NCBI GenBank assembly: GCA_021200775.1
Contig: JAJQGB010000012.1
Coordinates: 1 to 64,000, forward strand
DNA length: 64,000 nt
From: Oscillospiraceae bacterium
GTDB taxonomy: Bacteria; Bacillota; Clostridia; Oscillospirales; Ruminococcaceae
Reading direction: 5' to 3'
The translations under genes and the position numbers were made by a program. The notes below the pieces were generated by a model. It worked only from the letters and a program-made list of their open reading frames with translations. It was not told where the DNA came from and did no database searches. This document shows, in pieces, positions 40,677 through 64,000 of this stretch (positions are counted from its first letter, which is position 1; each line of letters opens with the position of its first letter).

Positions 40677-43451
40677 TCACTTCTCCACCATCTCCCTATA
40701 CATCCTCATCAGCTCCGCCACGCACCCGGACTCGGTCATCTCCTTAGAAGAGAACCCATAAGCCTGCATGACGGCAATATCATTATACTGATGTGCCTTC
40801 CGAAGCTCCGGCGGCATAACCGCCTCGTCATAAAGGTCTGCCAGGCTGTCATTCGGATACAAAGCCCGGGCATCCAGAATCCCCTGCGCCGTCTTCTCAA
40901 TCTTAGCCTTCTGCTCAGCAGTAGGAGAGCACCAAGGGAAGTTGTTGTAAACGATGTCCTTTGAATAGCTATAACGCATTTCAAGTCTACCACAGACCGC
41001 CCTCATCCACGCCATATGTACGTTTGAAGTGAGAACGCCAAAGTTGTACAAGTCTGCATTTGGTATGATAAATAGCTTGTTGCCAGCAATAACATCACCG
41101 TTTAGATATCCCATTGGAATATACTTTCTTTGCTCAGAAGATACAACCGGAAGCGCAATATACTTATCCGGGTTGAGTTGTTCTCTAAACAGAGTAGGCG
41201 TTTCTGCTAACTTACGTCTGCCTGCGTCAGGACTGTTTTCTCTGTCTTCCTTGCAAAGAGCCACACGCTTGAGAACAGAAGGACACTCACGCAATTCTTT
41301 TGGAGACACTCCAACTAACCATAGGCAATATCGAGGCACATTATTGATAAACTCATATCCCATCATAAACCTTTTGATGAATTTTTCCGCTTTAGGTTCT
41401 TTACTAATCAACTCGTCACGTTCTTCTTGCGACAATAGAAGGAATCCGCCGTCCGCAGGACGATTTCCAGATAACATTTCTGGTGCATTACACAGAGGCT
41501 TGCGTCTCTTTTCAATGAAAAGTACTTCGCCATCAGTAAGATAGAAGTTTATATTTTTTACCTGCTTTCTAGTGTCACCTTCAAAAAGCACTTTTTCTTT
41601 ATCATTTGGCGCAACACTAAATCCGACTATTACGCAGTGAACGTGCGCTTTCAGGCTGGCTTCGCTGTCCCAGCGGAAAGTGCGGTGGGCGAAGTCTATG
41701 TGAATACCGAAGCGTTCATAGAGCGGTTTCCATATGCCTGCTACTTGTTCGCCTTGCGTGATTGAATTTGTCGAAACAAGGGCGGCACGGATATTTGTGC
41801 CTTGCATAAACTGAGCCGCTTTGAAGTACCATCCGGCAACATAGTCTATCTTTCCGGCAGTCTTGTAAGGCTTGCCTTTTTCGTCAACAAAGATGGAAAG
41901 AATATCGTTCTTTTGCTCCTTCGATTGCAACGAATATCCCACAAACGGTGGATTGCCCATGATGTAGCTCAGTTCGGTTTTGGGGACTATGGTTTCCCAG
42001 GCGGTGGTGAGGGCGTTGGATTCTATTATGTAGGCGTTGGTTTTTAAAGGGAGGAAGTTGAGTTCTTTGAAGACTATTTCTTCCGTCTCCTTCATCATCT
42101 GGCTCTCGGCAATCCATAGGGCGGTTTTGGCGACGGTGACGGCGAAGTCGTTTATCTCTATGCCGTAGAACTGGCTGATGGTGACTTTGATGGGGTCGAT
42201 GACGTCGCCCATCGACATCTGCCCGTGGGTGAGCTCGCTGATGACTTCGTTTTCAAGCCGACGAAGAGATAAGTATGTCTCGGTGAGGAAGTTGCCGCTT
42301 CCTGCGGCGGGGTCGAGGAATTTAAGGTTTGCTAGCTTCTCCTGGAAAGCTTTGAGGGCTTTATTTCGCTTGCCTTCGCCGGGAATCGCACGGATTTCGG
42401 CAAATTCTTTCTTCAGGTCGTCAAGGAACAACGGGTCGATGACCTTGTGGATGTTCTCAATCGAGGTGTAATGCATACCGCCCGAACGCCTGGTTTCGGG
42501 GTTTAAGGTGCTCTCGAAAACGGCGCCAAAGATGGTCGGGCTGATTTCCTTCCAGTTGAAGCCGGAGCTCGCCTGCTCTAAGAGAAGCTCACGGATTTCG
42601 TCGGTGAAGTTCGGGATTTCGATGTCTTCGTCGGAGAATAAGCCGCCGTTGACATATGGGAAAGCCGCAAGCTCAGGGTCGAGGTATTTGTCTCTCTTGT
42701 CTTCGGGAGTGTCGAGAATTTTGAAGAGCTCGATGAGGGCGGAGCGCATCCTTCTTGTCTCAAAGCTTGCCATATAGTCGTGGAACATGCCGTATCGGTC
42801 GAAAATCCCGGCGTTCTCGGCATAAAGGCAGAATACGAGCCGGACGCAGAGGACATTGAGGGAGTGCATGGCGGACTTGCTCGTCGGGTCGACGTATTCC
42901 TTCGAGAAGGCATCATAAAGAAGCCCGACAATCTCGCCTGCGGCGATGGAGACTTCCATCTCCCGCCTGATGTGCTCGCTTCCGGTGTCCACTAAAAAGT
43001 TCAATCTGTAGTATTCTTTAGGTAAATCTTCAAGCTTGATGATTTCCGGCTCGCCGTTCGGCTTGTTCATGTCGTAGACCCAGAACTCGGCAAAGTTGCA
43101 GGTGATAACCCACCTCGGGTGCCGGTCAACAGGAAGCTCGACGATGTAGCGCTTTGCCTGCTGGAAGGGAGTCAGATATGTTCCGTCCGACTGCTTGCCG
43201 GCTTTTTTCAGGTCCTTATCTATTCCCTTCTGCTCGATGAGGACTTTTGTTGAAGGGATGTAGCCGTCGATGAAGCTGGTGTGATCTAAATGCACCTGGT
43301 CCTCAAAGCTTATAAATTCCGAAATGTTCTTTACGCCATAGACGTGTTCGAGCAAATCAATCCAGAATTTCTGCGATTCGCCCTTTTCATATCCCTTGCC
43401 CTTCCAATATTCCGCAAATTTCTTCGCTTCCGCCGCCTGTAAATCAGTCAT
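40677..43451 (-). CDS. MmeI-like single-chain restriction-modification protein
   Basis: A 924-residue protein of the MmeI-type (type IIL) or closely related methyltransferase family. The N-terminal 200 residues have a nuclease-like pattern (SFIDGYIPSTKVLIEQKG). The methyltransferase core has motif I FLDPAAGSGNFLTE near residue 375 and motif IV IMGNPPFVGYS near residue 485, which indicates adenine-N6 methylation, followed by DYVAGWYFKAA. The C-terminal third would recognise the target. The ATG at 43451 follows GGGGGA; an in-frame TTG lies one codon earlier. A promoter is at 43486-43514. Confidence 0.88.
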   Translation of the reverse strand: MTDLQAAEAKKFAEYWKGKGYEKGESQKFWIDLLEHVYGVKNISEFISFEDQVHLDHTSFIDGYIPSTKVLIEQKGIDKDLKKAGKQSDGTYLTPFQQAKRYIVELPVDRHPRWVITCNFAEFWVYDMNKPNGEPEIIKLEDLPKEYYRLNFLVDTGSEHIRREMEVSIAAGEIVGLLYDAFSKEYVDPTSKSAMHSLNVLCVRLVFCLYAENAGIFDRYGMFHDYMASFETRRMRSALIELFKILDTPEDKRDKYLDPELAAFPYVNGGLFSDEDIEIPNFTDEIRELLLEQASSGFNWKEISPTIFGAVFESTLNPETRRSGGMHYTSIENIHKVIDPLFLDDLKKEFAEIRAIPGEGKRNKALKAFQEKLANLKFLDPAAGSGNFLTETYLSLRRLENEVISELTHGQMSMGDVIDPIKVTISQFYGIEINDFAVTVAKTALWIAESQMMKETEEIVFKELNFLPLKTNAYIIESNALTTAWETIVPKTELSYIMGNPPFVGYSLQSKEQKNDILSIFVDEKGKPYKTAGKIDYVAGWYFKAAQFMQGTNIRAALVSTNSITQGEQVAGIWKPLYERFGIHIDFAHRTFRWDSEASLKAHVHCVIVGFSVAPNDKEKVLFEGDTRKQVKNINFYLTDGEVLFIEKRRKPLCNAPEMLSGNRPADGGFLLLSQEERDELISKEPKAEKFIKRFMMGYEFINNVPRYCLWLVGVSPKELRECPSVLKRVALCKEDRENSPDAGRRKLAETPTLFREQLNPDKYIALPVVSSEQRKYIPMGYLNGDVIAGNKLFIIPNADLYNFGVLTSNVHMAWMRAVCGRLEMRYSYSKDIVYNNFPWCSPTAEQKAKIEKTAQGILDARALYPNDSLADLYDEAVMPPELRKAHQYNDIAVMQAYGFSSKEMTESGCVAELMRMYREMVEK

Positions 43452-43485
43452 CAAAAATCCCCCGTTCAGATTATTTTCTCATATT

Positions 43486-47379: not shown

Positions 47380-48210
47380 TCACCTTCTGACCACTTCATT
47401 CAGCGTCTTTCCATCCTTATCCTTCCACGCATCCCAGCCGTTGATACTACCGCCAAGGACAAAGGTTGCGGCGGAGCTGACGGAAGTAAACGATATGGAC
47501 ACCGTCGTCTTATGAATCCCATCCGAATATGCAATGTCGCCGTTTTCGATGGCGGTCTGCCTCTGTCTTTCGATACTAGCGGAGTGGCACTTGCGGTCAA
47601 TGTCTATCTGAGAGCCTTCCAGAACCTCAAACTTTTCGCCGTCATACACTCCGAACGCAGCGATTCCGTTCCTTGTCGTATGTAAAATATTCGATTCGTT
47701 CAGGGAAGCCTTTGAGTTGTCCATCTTGTAACCCTGAGTCGCCATGATGAACTGAATTTCCTCGTAAGCCTCCTCAATCAGCGGCATATCGTACTCATCA
47801 ATCTCGTATCTCGGATTGACGGTATTCTCGACTTTGTAACGCTTTGCCTCGTGAGCCTTGCCGATGGCGTATGCTTCAAGACCGCTTATCATGTCAAGAG
47901 AGAAGGTCTTACTGTCAGCCAGAAACATTATCGCCTTGTTCCAGAAATCCTTGGAGCGGTTGTGATCGTCAAGCCTTGCGACCCCGTTCCGGGTTTGTCC
48001 GATATAAATTTCGGCAATCTTGTTGTCGTCATTCTCACTGATAAGATAGTAAATCCCCGGGCGATTGATTCCGGAAATCTTCTTCGCCTCGCTGAGAAGC
48101 GGTCTTGGAATGACATAAGTCGTCATAGTAGAAAGATGCCTGCGGATGGAACGAATCCCATCCGGCTGACCGTTGTGGTATATAACTTCAAGCTTTTTGC
48201 TGATTGACAT
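47380..48210 (-). CDS. GIY-YIG nuclease-domain protein with DUF4357
   Basis: A 276-residue protein. The GIY-YIG core is visible as PGIYYLISEND, then AEIYIGQTRNGVARLDDHN, with the following helix and a late Glu (GLEAYAIG). The C-terminal WDAWKDKDGKTLNEVVR fits DUF4357, which often follows such nucleases in restriction or defence loci. I chose the ATG at 48210, after AAGGA. The next ATG upstream (48228) overlaps that site. Target unknown. Confidence 0.8.
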   Translation of the reverse strand: MSISKKLEVIYHNGQPDGIRSIRRHLSTMTTYVIPRPLLSEAKKISGINRPGIYYLISENDDNKIAEIYIGQTRNGVARLDDHNRSKDFWNKAIMFLADSKTFSLDMISGLEAYAIGKAHEAKRYKVENTVNPRYEIDEYDMPLIEEAYEEIQFIMATQGYKMDNSKASLNESNILHTTRNGIAAFGVYDGEKFEVLEGSQIDIDRKCHSASIERQRQTAIENGDIAYSDGIHKTTVSISFTSVSSAATFVLGGSINGWDAWKDKDGKTLNEVVRR

Positions 48211-48352
48211 GAAGGTTGGTCCTTTCATAAAACTCTGTTGTTAATTATATCACAAACACTTTACTCTTTTCAACTGTTTTGCAGGATTTTATACGATAGT
48301 TGTTGAAATTAGAGTACGCATATTCCCGCCGTTTCGGCAAATAATAGCACTA

Positions 48353-48676: not shown

Positions 48677-49270
48677 ATGCTTGCAAAAGATAAGCTTCAA
48701 ACACTCGTCAAGCAAAACAATGGGTATCTGCTGACTTCCGATGCTGTTGAGGCGGGAGTCTCAAAAACATATCTCGCTCAGTTCGTCAAAGACAACGGAA
48801 TGAAGCGTGTATCACACGGCGTTTATCTTTCCCAAGATGGGTGGAGAGATGAATACTATATTCTGTTTCTTGCAAATAAAAAAATCGTCTTTTCGCACGA
48901 ATCGGCTCTGTATCTTCATGATATGACAGACAGAGAACCGCCGCAGATTTCGGTCACCGTCCGAGCCGGATATAACGCCACGCATTTCCGCAAACAAGGT
49001 GTCAAGGTTCATCAGGTTAAGGCAGATATGTTTGACATCGGAATCAGTAACGTCAAGACGAATATGGGCAACGAAGTTATGGCATATGACCGTGAACGCA
49101 CTATTTGCGATATTGTCCGTTACCATGACGATATGGATTCGCAGACGTTCCAGACAGCTATGAAAGAATATATGCGAAGTAGTGACAGGAATCTGAACAA
49201 GCTGATGAAGTACGCGACGTTATTCGGAATCGAGAAGGAAATGAAAAATTATGTGGAGGTTTTGACGTGA
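48677..49270 (+). CDS. abiEi: AbiEi-type antitoxin/repressor
   Basis: A 197-residue member of the AbiEi antitoxin family. The N-terminal winged-helix part (NNGYLLTSDAVEAGVSKTYL, RVSHGVYLSQDGWRDEYYI) would bind DNA. The later part contains the family's H-S-ALYLHDMTDREP and the ERTICDIVRY segments. AbiEi neutralises the nucleotidyltransferase toxin AbiEii and represses the operon. The ATG at 48677 follows AAGGTG, just 12 bases after the palindromic operator. It overlaps the toxin gene by four bases (GTGA). Confidence 0.9.
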   Translation: MLAKDKLQTLVKQNNGYLLTSDAVEAGVSKTYLAQFVKDNGMKRVSHGVYLSQDGWRDEYYILFLANKKIVFSHESALYLHDMTDREPPQISVTVRAGYNATHFRKQGVKVHQVKADMFDIGISNVKTNMGNEVMAYDRERTICDIVRYHDDMDSQTFQTAMKEYMRSSDRNLNKLMKYATLFGIEKEMKNYVEVLT

Positions 49271-50112
49271 TAAAAACATCGAGTCAGTTAAAAGCAAAAG
49301 TTCGGAATCTCTCCGGCGGTGACACGCAGAGAGCTCAAACCTTGATAAGAACTTTCGTCATGGAGAGATTTCTTGAACGAGTAAGTCTGTCAAAATACAG
49401 AGATCGCTTCATTCTGAAAGGCGGAATGCTGGTTGCCGCTGTTACCGGAATGGATATGCGCGCAACGATGGATATTGACACCACAACAAAAGCTCTGCCC
49501 CTGAACGCACAGGATGCAGAGCGGATTGTAAAAGAAATCGCAGACATCGAAATCGAAGATGGCGTTTCATTCAGAATCACCAAGGTCTCCGACATCATGG
49601 AGGAACACGAATATCCGGGAATCCGAATTATGTTGGAAGCCAATCTTGACCGTCTGAGACAAGCAATCAAAATAGACATCTCAACCGGCGATGTAATCAC
49701 TCCGGGAGCGATAGAATTCTCGTATAAGCTCATGTTTGAGGACAGGAGTATTTCGCTAATGGCGTACAATATTGAGACTCTCTTGGCAGAGAAGATGGAG
49801 ACAATTCTCTCACGGGGAATTGCCAACACCCGAATGCGTGACTTTTACGACATCTATATTCTCACTGAGCAGAACATGGAAATTGACGATGCCATCCTTT
49901 CCGAAGCCTTAATTGCAGTATGCAACAAAAGACGTTCCGAAGCCTACATATCAAGTGCATCTGAAATTCTCGACGACATTGAATCCAACGAACTGGTCAA
50001 AACCGAATGGGAAAGATACAGGAAGAACAATTTCTATGTCGGGGATTTGGAATTTGGTGAGGTTATGAGCGGTGTTAGGCGGATATTTAGACGGTGTGGC
50101 ATAGTAGTTTAA
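49267..50112 (+). CDS. abiEii: AbiEii-type nucleotidyltransferase toxin
   Basis: A 281-residue nucleotidyltransferase toxin of the AbiEii/AbiGii family. Visible motifs are FILKGGMLVAAVTG, RATMDIDTTTK (the DxD metal pair) and the later ETLLAEKMETILSRG and RMRDFYDIY. Family members modify RNA and stop growth, which gives abortive infection. It starts with GTG at 49267, with GGAGG in the overlap with abiEi. No terminator is obvious after it. Confidence 0.9.
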   Translation: MIKTSSQLKAKVRNLSGGDTQRAQTLIRTFVMERFLERVSLSKYRDRFILKGGMLVAAVTGMDMRATMDIDTTTKALPLNAQDAERIVKEIADIEIEDGVSFRITKVSDIMEEHEYPGIRIMLEANLDRLRQAIKIDISTGDVITPGAIEFSYKLMFEDRSISLMAYNIETLLAEKMETILSRGIANTRMRDFYDIYILTEQNMEIDDAILSEALIAVCNKRRSEAYISSASEILDDIESNELVKTEWERYRKNNFYVGDLEFGEVMSGVRRIFRRCGIVV

Positions 50113-50872: not shown

Positions 50873-51553
50873 CTACTTATAACTCCCCTGCTCCTCCCTC
50901 TCGGTCCGTATCTCCCTCAGGGTCTTGCCCTGATAGGTCCAATACGCGGGTCCGGCGAGGGCGTGGTCGGATTCAAGAAGCTTTCTGGCGAGGCTCGAAG
51001 TCGAATAGGTCAGCCCGTGATACTCGATGTGCCTGTCGTCCTTCACCGTGGCGACGAACTCAGGGTGATTCAGCAGTTCAATCTCCGCGCCGACGGGGAT
51101 GCCGCATTTTTCGAACGAGAAGGGCGAACGCCGCTCGTTGGACTCCTCCTGAATCTCGGCGGCGACCTCTTCGTCAAGAATCTCGTGCCCTTCAGGAGTC
51201 ATTCGCTGGAGGCAGTCCTGCGTGCCGCTCAGCTTCGCAATGCTCTCCAGAAGCGAATAGGCATCCTCGGCTGACATCGCATAAAACTCCTTTGTGCGGG
51301 TCTTCCCGTCGAACGTGTCGATGGCTCTCAGGTCGGGGTTCAGTCGGTCGATGATGCTGTGCAACTCCTTGTCCTGAAGCGGTTTCGTGACGTGATAAAC
51401 GGCGTAGACCCGGAACGCAAACGGGATGCACTCGCTCCGATTCAACTGCTTCAGCCGCTTCTCGAGGTCGGTCGCATAGCCGATTTTTATGTAGTTTGGG
51501 AATGACGGGTTTGTCAGGATGTAGATTACGCCGGTGTAATTTTTTGCAGGCAT
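50873..51553 (-). CDS. GIY-YIG nuclease-domain protein
   Basis: A 226-residue protein. The T5orf172/GIY-YIG-type core reads GVIYILTNPSFPNYIKIGYA with the Arg in LEKRLKQLN and a later Glu in DKELHSII. The C-terminal half (GLTYSTSSLARKLL, GPAYWTYQGKTLREI) is like the DNA-associated domain fused to such nucleases. The ATG at 51553 follows AAGGAG. A truncated duplicate lies at 47005-47206. A promoter is visible at 51637-51665. Confidence 0.8.
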   Translation of the reverse strand: MPAKNYTGVIYILTNPSFPNYIKIGYATDLEKRLKQLNRSECIPFAFRVYAVYHVTKPLQDKELHSIIDRLNPDLRAIDTFDGKTRTKEFYAMSAEDAYSLLESIAKLSGTQDCLQRMTPEGHEILDEEVAAEIQEESNERRSPFSFEKCGIPVGAEIELLNHPEFVATVKDDRHIEYHGLTYSTSSLARKLLESDHALAGPAYWTYQGKTLREIRTEREEQGSYK

Positions 51554-51636
51554 GGGGAGGGCTCCTTTTTCTGAGTATTGCAACTATGGATTCAATTATG
51601 ATTTTGTGTTATCGTGCTAACTTTCTTGCAAAATAT

Positions 51637-51769: not shown

Positions 51770-52363
51770 TCATAACCTCTCACTAATAAACTTGCTCACC
51801 GTATTACGGTTTACCTTATATATCCTTGCAATTTCGCTTATTGTGACGCCCTGTGCCCGGAGGTCACGGATTATATCTTCTTTGCCGGAAAGCTTCACCT
51901 TTCCCGACTTGCTCCCTTTCGGTCTTCCAAGAACCACTCCCTCGGCTCTCTTCCTTTTAAGAGCTTCAGTTGTACGCTGGCTGATAAGATTCCTCTCGAT
52001 TTCCGCGGACAATCCAAATGCAAATGCCAGAACCTTACTTTGAATATCATCGCCCAGTCTATATCCGTCTTTTATCGTCCAGACCCGGCATTCTTTCATC
52101 ATGCACTGATTCAGAATCTCCATTATCATGAACAGATTTCTTCCGAGTCTCGACAGCTCAGAGCAGATAATCAGGTCGTCCTTTTTGACCTTATCAAGCA
52201 ATTTTCCGAGCTTCCGTACGTCATAATTCTTGGTTCCGCTTATCGTTTCTTCAATCCAGCCATCAATTTTAAGCTCATTTCTCTCGCAGAAAGTCAGAAT
52301 TTCAAACCTCTGATTTTCGACCGTCTGCTTATCACTGCTCACACGAATATAACCGTAATTCAT
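51770..52363 (-). CDS. Serine recombinase (DNA invertase type)
   Basis: A 197-residue small serine recombinase of the invertase/resolvase family, similar to Mpi-type global invertases. The catalytic Ser is in YGYIRVSSDKQT (residues 3-14). SELSRLGRN and the long E helix (SAEIERNLISQRTTEAL) follow, and GRPKGSKSG links to a C-terminal helix-turn-helix (ISEIARIYKVNRNTVSKFI). Its gene ends against the left arm of a 303-bp inverted repeat, only 25 bp away. It most likely flips the 1.8-kb segment 52389-54204 that carries two alternative methyltransferase 3' ends. GGAG precedes the ATG. A weak promoter (TTGCCT, 16 bases, TAAAAT) overlaps the repeat arm. Confidence 0.92.
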   Translation of the reverse strand: MNYGYIRVSSDKQTVENQRFEILTFCERNELKIDGWIEETISGTKNYDVRKLGKLLDKVKKDDLIICSELSRLGRNLFMIMEILNQCMMKECRVWTIKDGYRLGDDIQSKVLAFAFGLSAEIERNLISQRTTEALKRKRAEGVVLGRPKGSKSGKVKLSGKEDIIRDLRAQGVTISEIARIYKVNRNTVSKFISERL

Positions 52364-52366
52364 CTT

Positions 52367-52400
52367 AACGCTCCTTTACATTTTAATGGAGCGTTTTTGT
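52367..52400 (+). terminator. Hairpin at the edge of the invertible segment
   Basis: AACGCTCC (52367-52374) pairs with GGAGCGTT (52388-52395), followed by TTTG. It looks like an intrinsic terminator on the plus strand and overlaps the inverted-repeat boundary and the ribosome site of the invertase gene. Confidence 0.45.
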
Positions 52401-52691
52401 TAGGCAAAACAGCGCAAGCTGTTCCTTCGACAATGAAGAAAGCTGGGTTATCCTCAACCCCATCGAGCAAAGCATAAGGCGCAAAATAGAGGCAGTCGGC
52501 ACGCCGTTAAAAGACTGGGATATTTCTATCTACAGAGGAATCCTCACAGGTAAAAACGAAGCCTTCATCATTTCCGGTGCCAAGAAAGACGAGCTTATCG
52601 CTCAAGACCCAAAATCTGCTGAAATTATAAGACCAATTTTGCGTGGCAGGGACATCAAAAGGTATTCTTATGACTTTGCGGATTTGTGGCT
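52389..52691 (+). repeat. Left arm of 303-bp inverted repeat
   Basis: It is nearly identical (about three differences) to the reverse complement of 53902-54204. It encodes about 100 residues of the methyltransferase specificity region in frame. Both arms contain the imperfect dyad GCGTTTTTGTTAGGC followed by AAAACAGCGC (52391-52415 and 54178-54202), a candidate recombination site for the invertase (inference). Confidence 0.93.
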
Positions 52692-53274
52692 CATTGCCAC
52701 ATTTCCAAGCCGTCACTACAATATTGATGATTACCCCGCCGTTCGGGACTATTTGTTGTCATTTGGCATGGAACAACTCGAGCAAACAGGGATAATCCGT
52801 ACAATAGATGGCAAGCAAGTGAAAGCCAGAAAGAAAACCAACAACAAATGGTTTGAGACACAAGATAGCATATCTTATTGGGACGATTTTTCTAAGCAGA
52901 AAATCGTGTATCGTGAGATAAGTTCTGCCATGGATGCGTGCTTGGTTGAACCGGATGTTATGCTTAATAACAAGTGTTACATGGTTACAGGAGAACACCT
53001 TGTTTACTTATTAGCATTCTTTAACAGTAGCATTTTTACAAAGATGATCCTGCCTCAAGCCAATCTGACCGGCGGAAAAGGAGATGATTTTTTAAAGAAA
53101 ATCAAAGCCATATATCCAGATAAGCAAGATGAAGAAATGGTGCTTAACGAATATGAAGACTTAGTTCAAGCAAAAACAACTGTAGATGAGTTTGATAAAA
53201 CGATCAATGCCTTTTTCTATGATTTATATAAGCTCACAGAGGATGAAAAAGCTTTAATCGAACGCAGACATTGA
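52396..53274 (+). pseudogene. Silent alternative 3' end of the methyltransferase gene
   Basis: An open frame of about 292 codons without its own start or promoter. The first 98 or so residues match the expressed gene (FVRQNSASCSF through YSYDFADLWL). The remaining 190 differ, though a few positions such as DDFSKQKIV are shared. It ends 11 bp from the stop codon of the expressed gene, tail to tail. After inversion it would be fused in frame to the main gene and give a different TaqI-like specificity domain. This is a silent cassette rather than a decayed gene. Confidence 0.9.
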
Positions 53275-53285
53275 GCACACCTTAG

Positions 53286-56200
53286 TTATTCCTCGATATT
53301 CATATTTGTTATCTCTCTTTCCTTGTTTGAAAGAAACTCATCTATGTATGATATTTCTTCTTTGGTAAAACTAAAGGCTTTATATAAGTCAGCATCTGTA
53401 CAAGCAGTGCTATTTTTTAAGGACTCTGGTAGCGGAATCTCCTCTACATATTGTTGTCTCATCTGCATACCACCATTATCTAAAATAGCGACTTTCTTAA
53501 AGAAGTAATAAGCAGCATAGCGTGAGTTTAACATTTTCACTAGGGCATCCAAGTCGTTACCTGTTAAAAAGCATAAACTATCTGCAACATAGAAGTTTTC
53601 AGGTAAAATCGAAAACCTAGGAAATTCAGAAAAAGCTTTTTTTGATATTCTAGTTAATCTTGCCCACACGATTTTCTGCTTAGAAAAATCGTCGGAATAA
53701 TTTGCACCCCATCTTTGCAGTGCATACCATTCGTATCTTATACCAGTTTCAGCTTTGTTGCGTGCTTCTAACTCAGGCTTATATTTCAACAGGTGCTGAT
53801 AAACGGCAGGATACTCTTTTTCAAAGAGCTTTTCCGCTTCTTCTGAAGCTCCAATTATTGATGGGTCATTTTGTAGCGGGAAATGCCACGGTATGTAAAG
53901 TAGCCACAAATCCGCAAAGTCATAAGAGTACCGTTTGATGTCCCTGCCACGCAAAATGGGTCTTATAATTTCAGCAGATTTTGGGTCTTGAGCGATAAGC
54001 TCGTCTTTCTTGGCACCGGAAATGATGAAGGCTTCGTTTTTACCTGTGAGGATTCCTCTGTAGATAGAAATATCCCAGTCTTTTAACGGCGTGCCGACTG
54101 CCTCTATTTTGCGCCTTATGCTTTGCTCGATGGGGTTGAGGATAACCCAGCTTTCTTCATTGTCGAAGGAACAGCTTGCGCTGTTTTGCCTAACAAAAAC
54201 GCTCAAATTGTCTTTGCATTTTTCCTGTGCAATACAGGCAGTGGTGTTGTGTTTGTTTTCGCTCTTGGTGAACATGAGGATGTTTACGTCAACCGTTGCC
54301 GATTCAAAGATTTTCTGTCCAGCAAAATCAATCAGAATAAGCGGATTGGTGTTTTGGGCAAAGAAGCCCCTCAAAGCCTTTCCATAACCTGCTCTCATCC
54401 ACTTGTTGCTCGTGATAAAGCACAAAGTGCCATTTTTGTGAAGTAAAGAATGCCCTTTTTCGTAGAACAGGCAGTAAATGTCGCCTGTCTTTGCATAGGT
54501 TTCAAATCCCAGATTCTGATACTGGTCGCCGACCTTTTCTCCGGTTTCGTCATTGCAGGACTTCTGAAGCTGTATGTAAGGCGGATTTCCGATGACAACG
54601 TCGAAGCCGCCCTTGTCTCTGAAGACCCGGGCAAATTCAAGCTGCCACAGAATGAACGGCTTGGAAGCCTTTTCGGTGGCTTGTTCGTAAAGTTCTCTCG
54701 TCTCTGGAGAAATACAATTCAACTGTGACTCAATAGCAGCAGTCTTAAGCTCGGAAATCTCAGCTAATAACTGCTTTTTCTTGTCTGGGCTATCACAATA
54801 GAACAGCTCGTCCTGCTTTTTGAGCAGAGGAGGGATTGCGGCTTCAAATTGTGTCTGGGCGAAATCAAACTGCTCGCCTCCGTTTGCATTGCCCAGCATG
54901 GTGCTTTGATTGATAAGCTTAACGCCTTCAAACTCATCCACGAGACTGTTACCGCAGAGGATGTTGCATTCAAGATTCGGAAGTGGCAGAGGGTTTCTGT
55001 GACCTTCAAGCTCATTTCTTGCATTGGGATTTATTTCATCATCAATGACTAGTGACAGCCAGAGGCGAAGCTGAGCTATGTCAACGGTGGAGGGCTCAAT
55101 ATCAACCGCAAAGATAGAATTCTTGATGGTGTGCTGTTTCAGCATATATGCAGAGCGACTTCTGTATAAGTCTCCTCTTATGAAACTTGCCTGCCTCTCA
55201 AATTTGGCATCCTTCACAGCCGCAATAGCCATATATACAGTCAGAGTTTGCCTTGCTCTCACTATTTCACTCATCATGCCGAGAGGAAATGCTCCCGACC
55301 CTACCGCCGGATCGGCAACACGAATATCCTTAAGAGCATCATCAAGCTCTTTCAGGCGATTGACATTGTTCTTAAACGAAAGTATATTCTCGGAAATATA
55401 CATTTCCTTGTTGTAATCAAACTTCATGCAGGGCTTGCCGTTCTCATCGACAGCATGTATCGTCTTCACGCTGTCCTCATCCTTCATGAAATCTCCGTAA
55501 AGAATGAGGTCACGGATATCACCTTCAGGCAGCCCTGTTGAACCAACAAGATAACTGATAAGGCTTTCCTGACACATATAGTGCACAATTTCACGGGGAG
55601 TATAGAAGGCACCTTTGCTCTTGCGGTCATCCACTTCCAGAAGACTTTCAAATACTTTTCCGAGCATTTCCGGGTCAATGGCAACCTCACGCTCCATGGG
55701 CTCGTCTTCGCTCATGGTAAAGTTGTAACTATCGAATATGTCCAGAATGCCGTCGGCATTTCTGTCGTTATCGTCTTTCTTATTTGAGAAAATCTCATCA
55801 GGAATGTTCAACCTTGAGTTTTTCCAGTCGTAACCGTTTATCGGTTCAAAAAGCCCTCCGGACAAAAACGGGACGCGGCAGTGCAGGAGGGTGGAATATC
55901 CCCACTCTCCACGGTTCCTGTTCAGTGTGTCATAAAAAAGAGGCTCAAGATAATCGTTGTAGAAATTACATCCCTTCTTCTTGGAAAATTCAAAAAGTTC
56001 CCTCAAAAACTTTCTGGAACCGTGACCCCAATTATTGGCCTCACCTTTCGGGAGACAGTTGGCAATGGCTTCCTCGGCATCATCGGGAATACTATTAAGA
56101 ACGGACAAATCCGCACATTCATACTTGTCCTCTTTTTTAGTATAGATTCTCGGAAGATACTCCTTAATTAGTTTGCCCTTAACACCGTATGTGCTGTAGT

Positions 56201-56999
56201 AGACTTTGTTGTACTGCTTTTCGTCGAGTCTTTTGTTAGTCTTCCATACACTGACACCAAGCCAGCCCTTCTTCTGGAGGAAGTAGAGAAAGACAATCTG
56301 ACCCATAAGCTTTTTTGCAAACTGCTCTGCTGTAAACCCGCATTTTTCCGATTCCGCTATAAAGTCATCATTGCCACTGAGGTGGTCTTTCAAATCATGG
56401 AATTTCTCGCAATATAGCTCGAAGAATTCCTTTGTGACCTTCTCAACGCTGAACGACTCTTCAATATCGTCAAGGGTCGGCTTTAAATCGGTGTGAGCTA
56501 CTAGGTCTATGAGCCTCTCTTTGGCTGTATGCGACGGCTCGTACTTGCCCACAAGGAAAGAATATCTTTTAGCAGGAGTTATATTCTCCGTTGCCTTTAG
56601 TCTTCCGTTATCAATCTTCATTTCGTAATCAAGGCGAACGAAAGACAACCTCCACTTGAAATCGGAGCCAGAATAGTATGCAACCAAAGCTGCATCGGCG
56701 TTATTGTTTTCTATCAGCTTCTTGGCGTAGCTTCTCTGAGTGCTCCGTGATGTTTCGACATAAGCATCCTTCTTAAGCTGAACCGCAAGAATCAATAGCT
56801 TTTTATTGTCCGGGGTATAGTAATCCGCAACGTAGGAATGGCTTTCTATGTGTGAGGAGAAATTGGTGCGCTCCGGCTGTTGCTTGTAGGGAGCTACCAT
56901 TTCCGCTGAATACAAAATCTCCTTCACAAGAGTCACATAGTTCTCTATAGAAAACTCGTTTTCGAGAATATTCTGAATCCTTCCGGCATCCGTTACCAT
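53286..56999 (-). CDS. Eco57I/TaqI-type DNA methyltransferase with invertible specificity domain
   Basis: A 1237-residue adenine methyltransferase of the Eco57I class. Residues 1-150 include a nuclease-like segment (YYTPDNKKLLILAVQLKKD) whose completeness is uncertain. Motif I is VADPAVGSGAFPLGM near residue 560, and motif IV is VVIGNPPYIQLQ near residue 805. The C-terminal 300 residues form a TaqI-like specificity domain (GILTGKNEAFIISG, RPILRGRDIKRY). All of that domain from codon about 932 on lies in the invertible segment. The ATG is in the leader GGAGGTAGATAAAAATG, two bases after the helicase gene stop, so the two are co-translated. It probably modifies host DNA and sets the specificity of a defence system. 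Confidence 0.93.
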   Translation of the reverse strand: MVTDAGRIQNILENEFSIENYVTLVKEILYSAEMVAPYKQQPERTNFSSHIESHSYVADYYTPDNKKLLILAVQLKKDAYVETSRSTQRSYAKKLIENNNADAALVAYYSGSDFKWRLSFVRLDYEMKIDNGRLKATENITPAKRYSFLVGKYEPSHTAKERLIDLVAHTDLKPTLDDIEESFSVEKVTKEFFELYCEKFHDLKDHLSGNDDFIAESEKCGFTAEQFAKKLMGQIVFLYFLQKKGWLGVSVWKTNKRLDEKQYNKVYYSTYGVKGKLIKEYLPRIYTKKEDKYECADLSVLNSIPDDAEEAIANCLPKGEANNWGHGSRKFLRELFEFSKKKGCNFYNDYLEPLFYDTLNRNRGEWGYSTLLHCRVPFLSGGLFEPINGYDWKNSRLNIPDEIFSNKKDDNDRNADGILDIFDSYNFTMSEDEPMEREVAIDPEMLGKVFESLLEVDDRKSKGAFYTPREIVHYMCQESLISYLVGSTGLPEGDIRDLILYGDFMKDEDSVKTIHAVDENGKPCMKFDYNKEMYISENILSFKNNVNRLKELDDALKDIRVADPAVGSGAFPLGMMSEIVRARQTLTVYMAIAAVKDAKFERQASFIRGDLYRSRSAYMLKQHTIKNSIFAVDIEPSTVDIAQLRLWLSLVIDDEINPNARNELEGHRNPLPLPNLECNILCGNSLVDEFEGVKLINQSTMLGNANGGEQFDFAQTQFEAAIPPLLKKQDELFYCDSPDKKKQLLAEISELKTAAIESQLNCISPETRELYEQATEKASKPFILWQLEFARVFRDKGGFDVVIGNPPYIQLQKSCNDETGEKVGDQYQNLGFETYAKTGDIYCLFYEKGHSLLHKNGTLCFITSNKWMRAGYGKALRGFFAQNTNPLILIDFAGQKIFESATVDVNILMFTKSENKHNTTACIAQEKCKDNLSVFVRQNSASCSFDNEESWVILNPIEQSIRRKIEAVGTPLKDWDISIYRGILTGKNEAFIISGAKKDELIAQDPKSAEIIRPILRGRDIKRYSYDFADLWLLYIPWHFPLQNDPSIIGASEEAEKLFEKEYPAVYQHLLKYKPELEARNKAETGIRYEWYALQRWGANYSDDFSKQKIVWARLTRISKKAFSEFPRFSILPENFYVADSLCFLTGNDLDALVKMLNSRYAAYYFFKKVAILDNGGMQMRQQYVEEIPLPESLKNSTACTDADLYKAFSFTKEEISYIDEFLSNKEREITNMNIEE
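53902..54204 (-). repeat. Right arm of 303-bp inverted repeat
   Basis: Inverted copy of 52389-52691, lying inside the expressed methyltransferase gene at the start of its specificity domain. Confidence 0.93.
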
Positions 57000-57001
57000 T
57001 T

Positions 57002-60000
57002 TTATCTACCTCCGTTTTTCAAATAAGCAGACAAAACAACCTGCTTTTCATCGTTTCCCTTTGCTTTCTTCTGAACACTGTCATTAAGATAGCTTTGCGG
57101 TACGATATTCATGATGTCATAGTATAGCTCCAAGGTGTCCGTAGCCGTTTTACTCTTCTTGCTTATATCCTTGGTTACCTTTGCCGGAATATCGCCGGAC
57201 TCTATACGCTCAATCAGAATATCAAGCTTTTCAGCCTGCTCCTCTGTCAGTCTCTGTTCACTGTGCATTGCTTTCAATAGTCTGATTACCTTAGCATCAT
57301 TGCCAATCAGCATCGGCTTCTCTGTCGATGCTGTTTCTTCTTCCAGAATGAAATCATCGAAAGCCATGCTGTTTTTCTTCAGGTGATCATAGTAGTCATG
57401 TGAAATGCTGGCTCTCTGAGCTTTTTCATCAGACTCTATAAGCTGAATTGCTTCCATAAAAGTCAGTTGTTTGGTCTCGTTAGCGTCAGATACAAAGAAT
57501 GTTTTCAAAGCTCCCTTTCTGATAAAGCTTACGGTAGATGTCTCGTCAACCAAATTACTGTCCTTACTGCTTTTAGCTTTTATCGGCAGAGCTTTAATTG
57601 CACCGAACAAATTGGGGTTGCTGTCTCTGACCTGACGAATAACGCCAAGGTAAGCCAGTTCGGGATTCGTACTTTCTTCATCATCCATATCTTTATTCAA
57701 TTCGGAGAACAGCTTTTTAGATGAAATCTCCTCATCATCGGAAAGATACTTGATGTCCTCTCCCAATGTGTCATGGAAAGCTTGTAGCTTCTGCAAAATT
57801 CTTTCTTCAAGAGGCATATGCTTCTCACTTTGAGCCGTCGGGAAGAAGTTGAATACATAGATTCGATCATGCTCTGTTCCAACACGATTGACACGACCAA
57901 CACGTTGCATTATCCGAGTTGGGTTCCACGGAAGGTCATAGTTAATAAGAACATTAGCACGATGCAGGTTGATTCCTTCCGCCAGAACATCGGTCGTGAT
58001 GAGAACATCATACTTGTCATCCCCAAGGCTTCTGAATTTAGGATCGAAGCTTTCTTCAATATCCACCTTCAATGCCTGTGAGCTCTGCCCACTGAAGTTG
58101 ATAACACGCTTTCCGTAAATCTCTTTCAGGCTATCGCAAAGATACTCAGCCGTTTCCTTGGATTCCGTGAATATGATCATCTTCTTACCACGCATTGCTT
58201 CATTTTCAGACAAAGCCTTTTTGAACTCACCCAACTTCGGGTCTGTTTTCACGAACGACCACATGTCTCGGAGACTCTTGAGATCCGATAGGTCTCGCTC
58301 AAGGTCTTTCATGAATGCCGGTGTAAATTCCGTGGTTTCAAACTCCATTACATCCTGCTGTTCGATATAGTACAGAAGCTTATCGTCATCGCCATTGTCA
58401 AGAAGGTCATACACATCAACCTTTTTGCTTATATACACTTTTCCCGACTTTGCCATCTCAATGAACTTCCCATACGATTCGATGAACCGTGTCAAAGTCA
58501 TCTTGAAGGCATAAAAACTACTCTCCAACCGCTTAACAAGAATGCCCTTCATAAAGCCACCCATGTTGCGCTGTGCAGTTTGCATTGATGCATATTTAGC
58601 CTTATCCCTCAGGTAAAGCAACGGCGTATAACGTGCATAACGAAAATCTTTTATTATTGAGATAGTCTCGGTGAATATCTCATCTGTTGCTTCGTCAAAT
58701 TCGTAGACGATTTTTTCAGGGCTACCGACACTGGGAAATTTAAGTCCCTGCTTCTTGAGATCATCCGCATAATACTTCTGAATCTCGCCTCTTGTACGCC
58801 TTATCATTACTTCACGAAGTAGCTTATCTCTTATAACCTCGGAATTCTCCCTGACTTGCTTTGCATAAGCATCCGTTCCTTTTGGAATCTTTGATAATTT
58901 CGAATTCAAGCCACGGAAAAATCCTTCGATGTTTTTGATTCCGTTGATATTGCCACTCTGCTTAGGCTGAAACAGGTAAATCTGATTTTCAATATCGCTT
59001 GTATAGTTATTGATAGGCGTCGCTGAGATTAGAATTACCTTTTTCCCACGGCAAATCTGGTGAAGCTTCGTGTAACTATCGGTTCCGCTGTTACGGAAGC
59101 GATGAGCTTCATCCACAAAAACGTAGCTGTACTTGTCTGCACCCTTCTCGATTATATGATCCAATTTTCCGAGTGACACTACATCACAACGTGACACATC
59201 AAAATCCTGTAGAACATCTTTCCAATAGTCCTGTAAAACTGGAGGGCAAATAATCAATTTATAAGCATTGCGGTTAAAAGTGTTGGCAAGCATCGCACAG
59301 ATATATGTCTTTCCCAAACCAACAACGTCGGATATAAAGACCCCGTTGTACGCATCCAGTTTTTTCTTGGCTTGCAGGACAGCGTCTATCTGATATTGAA
59401 GTCGCATATATCCGTCGGGAAGAAGCATTTGAAAATTCTCTTTGTCAGAGTTGATTTCTTCTTTGAAATACTCATAGAGGGTTTTCAGATACAGTTCGTA
59501 GGGCGTAATATCATTACGAAGCCACGTTTTCTTTTCCACAGTATCTATGTAAACATCACGAATATCTTTGCTCTTTTTCCACAAAGTTTCAAACCTATTC
59601 AAGGCGAACTCAACATCGGAGGTGTCTTTCAACTCCACATTAAATTCCAAGTTATTGACAAGACCTGCTTCAGAAAAATTGCTTGAACCGGTAATAACAC
59701 TTCCGTACATATCCGGCACCTTAATCGGATCTTTTCTCATGATGTACACCTTTGCATGTATAGGTGCTTCTGTGTACATTCTCATCTCAAGCTTACCCGA
59801 TTTAAGCCAATCAATAAAGACTCTTACGCCTTTTTCCACATCATAAGTTGTCGATGCTTGCTCAAATTCTTTTTCTATTTCTTCCTCAACAATTTCTTTG
59901 CCTTCCTTTGCGGAAATTGATGAAATCCTAACTTCCTCACCTGCCTGATCCAAAATGCGGACAGTAAACCTGTCAACATTCAGCCCAACCAGTATGCGAA

Positions 60001-60169
60001 TTTTCTCCACATCCTCAAGTGCCGGATACAGTTTGAAAAAACCACTCGTTCTGAAATAGCCAACTAACACATCAAAAAACTGAGTGTTGCTTTTTAATAT
60101 TGCATTAAAACGGCTGTACAAGTCACGCTCGGGTTCATTTGTGAAAAATTTTAAATCTGTATGCGACAT
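57002..60169 (-). CDS. PLD-nuclease/superfamily 2 helicase fusion
   Basis: A 1055-residue protein. Residues 1-250 hold a phospholipase D-like nuclease domain with one HKD-type motif (IHAKVYIMRKD, GSVITGSSNFSE). A SNF2-like helicase follows: Walker A DVVGLGKTYICA near residue 290, VFVDEAHRF, ISATPINN, and the C-terminal lobe with FTESKETAEYL and QRVGRVNRVGTEHDRIYVF. Proteins of this kind occur with class I methyltransferases in phage-defence loci and probably act as the translocating nuclease arm. I chose the ATG at 60169, after AAAGGATG; a further ATG at 60202 lacks a site. The promoter is at 60274-60302. Confidence 0.92.
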   Translation of the reverse strand: MSHTDLKFFTNEPERDLYSRFNAILKSNTQFFDVLVGYFRTSGFFKLYPALEDVEKIRILVGLNVDRFTVRILDQAGEEVRISSISAKEGKEIVEEEIEKEFEQASTTYDVEKGVRVFIDWLKSGKLEMRMYTEAPIHAKVYIMRKDPIKVPDMYGSVITGSSNFSEAGLVNNLEFNVELKDTSDVEFALNRFETLWKKSKDIRDVYIDTVEKKTWLRNDITPYELYLKTLYEYFKEEINSDKENFQMLLPDGYMRLQYQIDAVLQAKKKLDAYNGVFISDVVGLGKTYICAMLANTFNRNAYKLIICPPVLQDYWKDVLQDFDVSRCDVVSLGKLDHIIEKGADKYSYVFVDEAHRFRNSGTDSYTKLHQICRGKKVILISATPINNYTSDIENQIYLFQPKQSGNINGIKNIEGFFRGLNSKLSKIPKGTDAYAKQVRENSEVIRDKLLREVMIRRTRGEIQKYYADDLKKQGLKFPSVGSPEKIVYEFDEATDEIFTETISIIKDFRYARYTPLLYLRDKAKYASMQTAQRNMGGFMKGILVKRLESSFYAFKMTLTRFIESYGKFIEMAKSGKVYISKKVDVYDLLDNGDDDKLLYYIEQQDVMEFETTEFTPAFMKDLERDLSDLKSLRDMWSFVKTDPKLGEFKKALSENEAMRGKKMIIFTESKETAEYLCDSLKEIYGKRVINFSGQSSQALKVDIEESFDPKFRSLGDDKYDVLITTDVLAEGINLHRANVLINYDLPWNPTRIMQRVGRVNRVGTEHDRIYVFNFFPTAQSEKHMPLEERILQKLQAFHDTLGEDIKYLSDDEEISSKKLFSELNKDMDDEESTNPELAYLGVIRQVRDSNPNLFGAIKALPIKAKSSKDSNLVDETSTVSFIRKGALKTFFVSDANETKQLTFMEAIQLIESDEKAQRASISHDYYDHLKKNSMAFDDFILEEETASTEKPMLIGNDAKVIRLLKAMHSEQRLTEEQAEKLDILIERIESGDIPAKVTKDISKKSKTATDTLELYYDIMNIVPQSYLNDSVQKKAKGNDEKQVVLSAYLKNGGR

Positions 60170-60273
60170 TATAGATACATCCTTTCGCTTTATATAGCTC
60201 ATATTTGGAAAGGCAAGACTGATTTTCTCTCATCAAGTTCTTTCAAAATAAGAAAGCACAATAATCAACAAAT

Positions 60274-62869: not shown

Positions 62870-62940
62870 GATTGTGGACAAAATCAGTGGAACGCCGCCC
62901 TTTCAGTTTTCCGACGAAAAAAGAAAGGTGTGGCGATTTA

Positions 62941-64000
62941 TGCTGAAATTAACTCTTGACAGAGATTACAAAGCCGCCATCTACCTGAGATTATCAAAGG
63001 AAGATGGCGATTTTTCATTCCAATGCGGCAAACAGGAGAGCGACAGTATCTCGAATCAGAGGCTCCTGATTATGGAGTACCTCAAGAAATGTCCCGAAAT
63101 AACGGTGGTTCGGGAATACTGCGACGACGGATATTCGGGCGCAAACTTCGAGCGTCCGCAGTTCCAGATGATGATGGATGCGGTCAGAGCGGGAGAGATT
63201 GACTGCATCGTTGTGAAAAACCTTTCACGTTTCGGACGTGAATACATCGACTCGGGAAACTATCTCCAGAAGATTTTTCCGACGCTCGGTGTGCGGTTCA
63301 TTGCGATTAACGACGGCTACGACAACGCCCGCTCCGAGTCGGGGGCAAACGACCTCGTTCTGCCGTTCAAGAATCTTATCAACGACTCCTATTGCCGGGA
63401 CATTTCAATCAAGGTTCGGACTAACCTGGATGCAAAAAGGCGGAGCGGTCAGTTCGTCGGAAGTCGGGTTGTCTATGGCTATATGCGGGACCCGGAAAAC
63501 AAAAATCATCTTGTTATCGATCGCGATGCCGCCGCCACGGTGCAGGACATCTTCAAGTGGAAGCTTGAGGGGATGTCTCCCGCTCAGATTGCGGACAGGC
63601 TGAACTGCGACGGGGTTCTCTCCCCTATTGAGTACAAAAAAGCAAAAGGCTCGAAGCAAAGAACCGTCTTCCAGACCAAGCCGCAGGCTCTCTGGAGTGC
63701 GGTCGCAATCTACTGGATTCTTAAGAACGAGATTTACACCGGCACACTTCTCCAAGGAAAGACCACGACCCCGAATCACAAGGTCAAAAAGACGATGCTC
63801 AAGGACAAAAGCGAGTGGTCACGGACGGAGAACGCTCACGAAGCGATTATCTCCTCAGCTCAGTTCGACCTCGTTCAGGAGATAATGAAGACCGACACCC
63901 GAAGCCCTTCGGGAGCAAACGGCGTGCATCTCTTTTCCGGAAAGATTTTCTGCGCCGACTGCGGAAGCCCGATGATTCGCAAAGTCGAGCGGTGCGGCGA
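62941..64000 (+). CDS. Large serine recombinase, TnpX-like, partial
   Basis: The frame opens at the ATG at 62941, after AAAGGTG, and is still open at the right edge (353 codons seen). The N-terminal catalytic domain has the nucleophile Ser in AAIYLRLSKEDGD and the Arg-rich VVKNLSRFGREYIDSG. A recombinase domain follows (VVYGYMRDPENKN, WILKNEIYTGTL), and then a zinc-ribbon start FCADCGSPM. Such enzymes excise and insert Tn4451-like elements and mobilizable islands. It is probably the integrase of the element that begins near 60.4 kb. Confidence 0.92.

Follow-up and report, generated by a model that had tools for sequence, protein, structure and literature searches.

The 64,000-nt stretch analysed here (the window; positions 1 to 64,000 of contig JAJQGB010000012.1, assembly GCA_021200775.1, from an Oscillospiraceae bacterium) carries an adenine methyltransferase (MTase) gene with two alternative 3' ends, which a 303-nt inverted repeat sets tail to tail. 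A serine invertase gene of the Mpi family lies just outside the repeat. We consider it highly probable that this locus is a site-specific inversion switch of the target-recognition domain (TRD) in a two-gene restriction-modification (R-M)-like system, driven by the adjacent invertase at sites of ~22 nt. In the mechanism that we propose, the invertase would recombine two copies of this site, one formed by MTase codons at the hinge between the catalytic domain and the TRD (residues ~932-938) and the other located just upstream of the invertase gene. Inversion would swap a TRD of ~306 residues for one of ~294, leaving the promoter, the catalytic domain and the partner gene untouched. The enzyme would thereby alternate between two DNA targets, and its helicase partner would restrict DNA without the current mark. 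The action of the invertase at the arm tips, the reading of different motifs by the two TRDs and the restriction of unmarked DNA by the helicase are steps that we infer.

The anatomy of the invertible segment carries this proposal. The two arms lie 1210 nt apart and are identical at 300 of 303 positions, the three mismatches (arm positions 247, 272 and 277) being all synonymous. In the 14-kb region searched, the second-longest inverted repeat measures 35 nt and falls within the same segment, and the remaining 15 listed are of 20-29 nt with 72-85% identity. The genome has a single copy of the segment, with both junctions on one contig. On the + strand, the silent frame reads through from 52390 to its stop codon at 53274; its variable part has no stop in 193 codons, an outcome with a probability of about 6e-7 given its mononucleotide composition. 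When the segment is inverted in silico, an uninterrupted MTase of 1226 aa is obtained, compared with 1237 aa in the present form. Residues 1-195 of the invertase match NF009949 above its curated cut-off, and its start codon, at 52363, stands 25 nt from the left arm. The locus thus offers one constant part two alternative specificity domains, both in frame, and has a recombinase next to it, as invertible R-M switches do. A sequence-only reading of this DNA had already described the repeat with its two MTase 3' ends, the open and in-frame silent end and the serine invertase 25 bp beyond the left arm, and all of this is confirmed here. That reading also predicted a swap of about 190 residues in a TaqI-like specificity domain. 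The domain assignment agrees with our results (see below), and the size agrees with the variable parts of the tails (204 expressed and 193 silent residues). However, if exchange takes place at the outer arm tip, as the relatives suggest, the physical exchange would probably involve ~306 versus ~294 residues, of which the first ~102 are alike in this genome.

The MTase comprises an Eco57I domain (residues 627-898) and a TaqI_C domain (residues 1014-1190). Methylation and target recognition therefore reside within a single polypeptide, which is characteristic of type IIG enzymes, and the best PADLOC model is also a type IIG one (REase_MTase_IIG, PDLC03596, 654 bits). Before residue 543 there is no Pfam match at E<=0.001, and a QxK-like stretch at residues 74-76 shows no conservation across five aligned homologues. 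By sequence, the best solved relative is CamA, followed by M.BseCI, and fold comparison agrees. The silent tail of 294 aa carries its own TaqI_C match. Its AlphaFold2 (AF2) model has a predicted local distance difference test (pLDDT) score of 91, and the fold predicted for it resembles the entire TRD of M.BseCI or CamA. The arm tip marks the boundary between the catalytic domain and the TRD. The recombination site is probably confined to the ~22 nt of the outer arm tip, which makes a complete TRD the probable unit of exchange. It seems unlikely that the switch is real and leaves methylation unchanged, either by being of an on/off or activity type or by having two TRDs that read the same motif. 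In favour of such a reading, the tails share their first ~102 residues and also have a DDFSKQKIV block in common. Nevertheless, both tails model or score as TRDs, their variable parts are 27% identical (44/164 aligned residues), and the closest kin of these parts differ among the 3' ends of other MTases.

The same plan recurs in other genomes. We surveyed named genomes for relatives of the MTase and used the best 80 of the 306 confirmed loci. Among these, an Mpi-family invertase lies beside the MTase 3' end in L036 (a Clostridia bacterium), L037 (Gallibacter intestinalis), L047 (a metagenome-assembled genome, MAG, of Oribacterium) and L096 (an alphaproteobacterial MAG). In the L038 genome, two invertases are found on other contigs; one of these and the L038 MTase contig terminate in the same site. 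An invertase search of 396 family and 398 phylum genomes added G548 (locus L134), G617, G689, G771 (L135) and G933 (L146). At E<=1e-70, carriers amounted to 6/396 family genomes and 2/398 phylum genomes, with our own genome counted in each; a DNA search found carriers in 3 of 31 genomes of the same genus, again including our own. Complete cassettes are present in G548 and G933, and the contigs of G617 and G689 end within an arm on both sides. Four other genomes (L036, L037, G548 and G933) have an intact module; their silent frames are open, and in-silico inversion yields an in-frame alternative MTase in each. The invertase adjoins the segment in the window, L036, L037, L096, L134 and L146, and in G933 it is oriented toward the segment, not away from it. 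We did not count as switches the distant serine recombinases (28-31% identical) near L040, L041 and L058, loci whose sites are without GAGCG, the motif discussed below. Regarding mobile genomes, 14 plasmid records matched the MTase at E<=1e-50, none spanning 80% of it; phages gave no matches at E<=1e-40, and IMG/VR returned no relative of the single protein queried. Three viral contigs matching the site pattern were taken as chance hits, as they have no MTase or invertase matches.

Comparison of these loci indicates where recombination may occur. The crossover is probably located at a ~22-nt site at the outer arm tips, not spread over the whole 303-nt arm, since the tip adjoins the invertase and the GAGCG found there accompanies the invertase. 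This 22-nt site exists in exactly two copies in the genome; allowing up to 3 mismatches adds no further copy, and the reversed control has none. The arm tips of L037 have TTGAGCGTTTTTGTTCAGCAGAA in common (23 identical nt) and then diverge, those of G933 have GAGCGATTTTGTTCAGCAAGAGCATAC in common (27 identical nt) before diverging, and in G548 the identical stretch from the tip extends for 103 nt. Of 85 loci tested, 72 could be aligned at the homologous codon and 13 could not; GAGCG is present in six of the 72, namely L036, L037, L038, L047, L096 and G548, which are the loci where an Mpi-family invertase turned up. This association is strong but not unbiased, because it was the invertase that led to G548, and in most other genomes the invertase was looked for only in the flanks. 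The probable crossover site is only weakly palindromic by eye, and no exact crossover dinucleotide was found in it. An 8-bp inverted repeat, AACGCTCC (52367-52374) and GGAGCGTT (52388-52395), also lies between the start region of the invertase and the probable crossover site, and through it the invertase may regulate its own gene; it was not seen in the L037 stretch compared.

Two genomes of the same genus, G009 and G014, carry the locus at 95-97% identity on contigs that end inside the arms. The window invertase is 100% identical to that of G014 and 99.5% to that of G009. Searches of both genomes for the tails with DNA, the MTase (P0001) and TaqI_C gave arms only, at the thresholds used. Beyond nt 36, the invertase-side arm of G014 and the MTase-side arm of G009 differ at 3 of 225 positions, and each of them differs from the window arms at 24-27 positions. 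Past nt 36, the two arms of G009 itself are distinguished by positions 37 and 41 (60 nt comparable). These patterns are no more than suggestive of opposite orientations in G009 and G014. The MTase-side contig of G014 breaks off immediately ahead of the base at which the two arm types begin to differ, as it should if one flank continued into two sequences.

Several observations weigh against a switch of the kind that we propose. The comparison of G009 and G014 hangs on two diagnostic nucleotides (37 and 41), the MTase-side arm of G014 ending at nt 36; we infer inversion in the cell from the sequences. Only six of the 72 alignable relatives bear marks of the switch. In four of the five intact loci the same TRD class is silent, which could reflect rare or biased switching. 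As to the site, the tip match of L036 is short and imperfect, without an exact shared stretch of at least 18 nt and without an inner block. Such an inner block, a second identical stretch, is found in the three intact switches L037 (33 nt), G548 (31 nt) and G933 (35 nt), ~70-90 codons inward from the tip and at a conserved RPILRGRDI stretch. Its codons are identical in L037 and G933, where the codons between the two blocks are mostly different; the encoded protein DPKSAEIIRPILRGRDI is conserved also in switch-less relatives, but the codon identity exceeds what that conservation explains. Exchange or gene conversion may thus take place at the inner block as well. This bears on the idea that homologous recombination of the RecA type, acting within the arms, inverts the segment and that the neighbouring invertase serves another role, which we judge quite unlikely. 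It would account for the length of the arms in our genome and for the inner block, which conversion or homologous exchange would leave; in addition, the pneumococcal spnIII locus is reported (PMC6620402) to recombine independently of known site-specific recombinases. Yet the identical blocks are short (23 + 33 nt in L037, 27 + 35 nt in G933), the invertase adjoins the segment in all the loci named above for this feature, GAGCG at the tip accompanies it, and the genome offers the invertase no other copy of the site.

Decay of the module also counts against our proposal. The L047 and L096 loci are decayed: in L047 (12900-13500) the MTase frame runs into a truncated invertase, and in L096 (12560-12900) a palindromic junction remains and both tails are lost. 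The G771 genome has the invertase without any MTase match; this protein (L135, 11347-11979) belongs to the Mpi family, is 79-80% identical, and has a GGAGCGTTAT-like remnant upstream. Since loss does occur, the silent tail of our locus might be a relic of a duplication or of TRD exchange between strains, the locus being now fixed. We find this very improbable in view of the 193 stop-free variable codons, the in-frame junction and the purely synonymous arm mismatches, the 100% and 99.5% identity of the invertase to its G014 and G009 counterparts, and the silent frames that are open and in frame in L036, L037, L134 and G933. Finally, repeat arms are prone to misassembly and several relatives break there, but an assembly artefact or chimera is hardly conceivable given that a single contig spans both junctions and that the same plan appears on single contigs in L036, L037, G548 and G933.

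The switch may not be bound to one type of MTase. The G548 cassette sits on an MTase with N-terminal DUF7149 and DUF7814 domains. Two frames upstream of it there is a ResIII-HNH helicase gene, with a 221-aa frame without Pfam match in between, and no PLD-helicase match was found in the 14 kb around the locus. Compared with the window MTase, the G548 enzyme is 23% identical over residues 1-330 (64/279), 33% over residues 331-539 (55/166) and 44% over the catalytic residues 540-931 (153/344), and then 79% over residues 932-1033 (81/102); the two invertases are 81% identical. Likewise, identity to G933 rises from 41% in the catalytic part (140/340) to 67% over 932-1033 (68/102). Two switch-less relatives show little or no such step (41% to 45% in L067, 48% to 54% in L042), and neither do L036 (63% to 54%) and L037 (61% to 62%), whose backbones are close to that of the window. 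The step in G548 and G933 suggests that a module of TRDs plus invertase moves between MTase backbones. We tentatively go one step further, in a proposal slightly more apt to fail than to hold: the invertase, the ~22-nt site and the TRD pair would form a transferable switch module on at least two helicase-MTase backbones (PLD-SNF2 and ResIII-HNH). As the site doubles as the hinge codons between the catalytic domain and the TRD, any compatible TRD could dock there, and one flip would retarget both methylation and restriction.

Upstream of the window MTase lies a gene for a phospholipase D (PLD) nuclease fused to an SNF2/SF2 helicase. A homologue is encoded upstream on the same strand in 72 of the 80 MTase-relative loci, and the remaining eight have at most 1455 nt of DNA upstream of the MTase frame. 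The GSSN, GLGKT and DE.H residues are invariant in 67/67 aligned helicases, and 66 of them have the H and K of the PLD motif, the other showing a gap there. The helicase partner named by the earlier reading is well founded. This recurrent pairing suggests that the PLD-helicase and the MTase form a two-gene R-M-like system, in which the PLD-helicase is the likely effector. In a Methanobrevibacter MAG (L104, 9914-15623), two tandem MTase relatives stand behind a single helicase.

Other genes of the window deserve mention. An MmeI-family (type IIL) R-M protein with MmeI_N, hel, Mtase, TRD and C domains (40677-43454, -) represents a second R-M enzyme ~9-10 kb from the switch. An AbiEi-like protein (24.4 bits, just below the cut-off of 25) and AbiEii form a type IV toxin-antitoxin pair beside the R-M locus (48677-50112, +), and GIY-YIG/DUF4357 and T5orf172 proteins are encoded near these defence genes (47380-48228 and 50873-51583, -). 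Beyond the helicase gene there is a large serine recombinase with Resolvase and Recombinase domains (62940-64000, +). In combination with the patchy synteny of G009 and G014, it is suggestive of a mobile element close to the locus. Coordinates of the switch and its partner are collected in Table 1.

Table 1. Features of the candidate switch. Positions refer to the window unless another locus is named.
Feature	Position	Strand	Basis
Mpi-family serine invertase, 197 aa	51770..52363	-	NF009949, 326.2 bits (cut-off 272)
Probable crossover site, invertase side, GAGCGTTTTTGTTAGGCAAAAC	52389..52410	+	Arms of relatives identical at tip; two genome copies
Probable crossover site, MTase side	54183..54204	-	Arms of relatives; two genome copies
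Invertible segment (arm, silent tail, expressed tail, arm)	52389..54204		Inverted repeat and in-silico inversion
Left arm, encoding first ~101 residues of silent tail	52389..52691	+	Repeat search, in-silico inversion
Silent alternative 3' end, variable part, 193 codons + stop	52692..53274	+	Open frame; TaqI_C match; AF2 pLDDT 91
Expressed 3' end, variable part, 204 codons + stop	53286..53901	-	Frame, domain match
Right arm, expressed copy, ~residues 932-1033 of MTase	53902..54204	-	Repeat search, in-silico inversion
Eco57I/TaqI_C adenine MTase, type IIG-like, 1237 aa (P0001)	53286..56999	-	Pfam, PADLOC PDLC03596 (654 bits), structure comparisons
PLD-nuclease + SNF2/SF2 helicase, up to 1066 aa, upstream partner	57002..60202	-	PLDc_2, SNF2 and Helicase_C matches
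Inner identical blocks of the arms	L037 12938-12970/14263-14295; L134 (G548) 8660-8690/9911-9941; L146 (G933) 13059-13093/14405-14439		Arm comparison

If the switch operates as proposed, a clonal population would hold cells with two modification specificities and probably two restriction specificities, and as a group it would be protected against phage already marked by one form. This scenario brings a puzzle with it. The genome of a flipped cell would be unmarked for the new target while the nuclease-helicase is present, and self-restriction must therefore somehow be averted. The hinge site would also mark a natural point of TRD exchange in this MTase class, at which the reading frame is kept.

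Among known systems, the invertase belongs to the same NCBIfam family (NF009949) as the master DNA invertase Mpi of B. fragilis. Mpi acts on many promoters, whereas the probable site described here has only two genome copies, in and next to coding sequence. CamA of C. difficile and M.BseCI, the closest solved relatives of the MTase by sequence and fold, have fewer than 600 residues in the solved structures and lack the N-terminal ~540 residues of P0001. Type ISP enzymes are single polypeptides. Unlike LlaGI and LlaBIII of that type, the system of the window encodes helicase/nuclease and MTase in separate genes (Table 1), and a type ISP assignment was rejected. We also rejected DISARM (defence island system associated with restriction-modification), its DrmD model scoring 159 against a cut-off of 610 bits, and a type I R-M system, as the TRD is the C-terminus of the MTase and neither P0001 nor P0004 has a Methylase_S Pfam match at E<=0.001. 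The PglX proteins of bacteriophage exclusion (BREX) systems were likewise dismissed, since P0001 scores 57.9 against 500 bits (BREX_1), 38.5 against 900 (BREX_6) and 36.3 against 400 (BREX_2).

BREX pglX undergoes inversion. The BREX-1 locus of L. rhamnosus, as described in PMC7513527, has a site-specific integrase lying between pglX and a second, partial pglX. It resembles our locus in having an MTase with its own TRD, a partial second copy and an adjacent site-specific recombinase, and differs in that the invertase lies here outside the segment and P0001 falls far below the PglX cut-off. A paper on BREX diversity (PMC12839542) gave no match when searched for an invertase, a recombinase, inversion or phase variation. 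Among type I R-M systems, phase-variable ones with an invertible hsdS are known, for example pneumococcal SpnIII (PMC4948785, PMC4190663). There too, inverted repeats exchange TRDs within coding sequence. In the window, by contrast, the TRD is part of the Eco57I/TaqI_C MTase polypeptide with no separate HsdS, the recombinase is an Mpi-family serine invertase, a single TRD has two states, and the partner is a PLD-SNF2 protein and not HsdR. Inversion in a PLD-helicase/Eco57I pair is not described in the titles or abstract openings of the literature searched. The nearest precedent is a systematic scan by Milman, Yelin and Kishony in NAR in 2023, which reportedly predicted gene-altering inversions in type II R-M genes with long-read support. 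The earlier statement that such switching is known for hsdS and pglX and not for this pair holds in its first half, both systems working alike, and its second half has to be read with these type II cases in mind. Altogether, the locus would be a variant among invertible R-M switches, because its backbone, its invertase family and its hinge-placed site differ from theirs.

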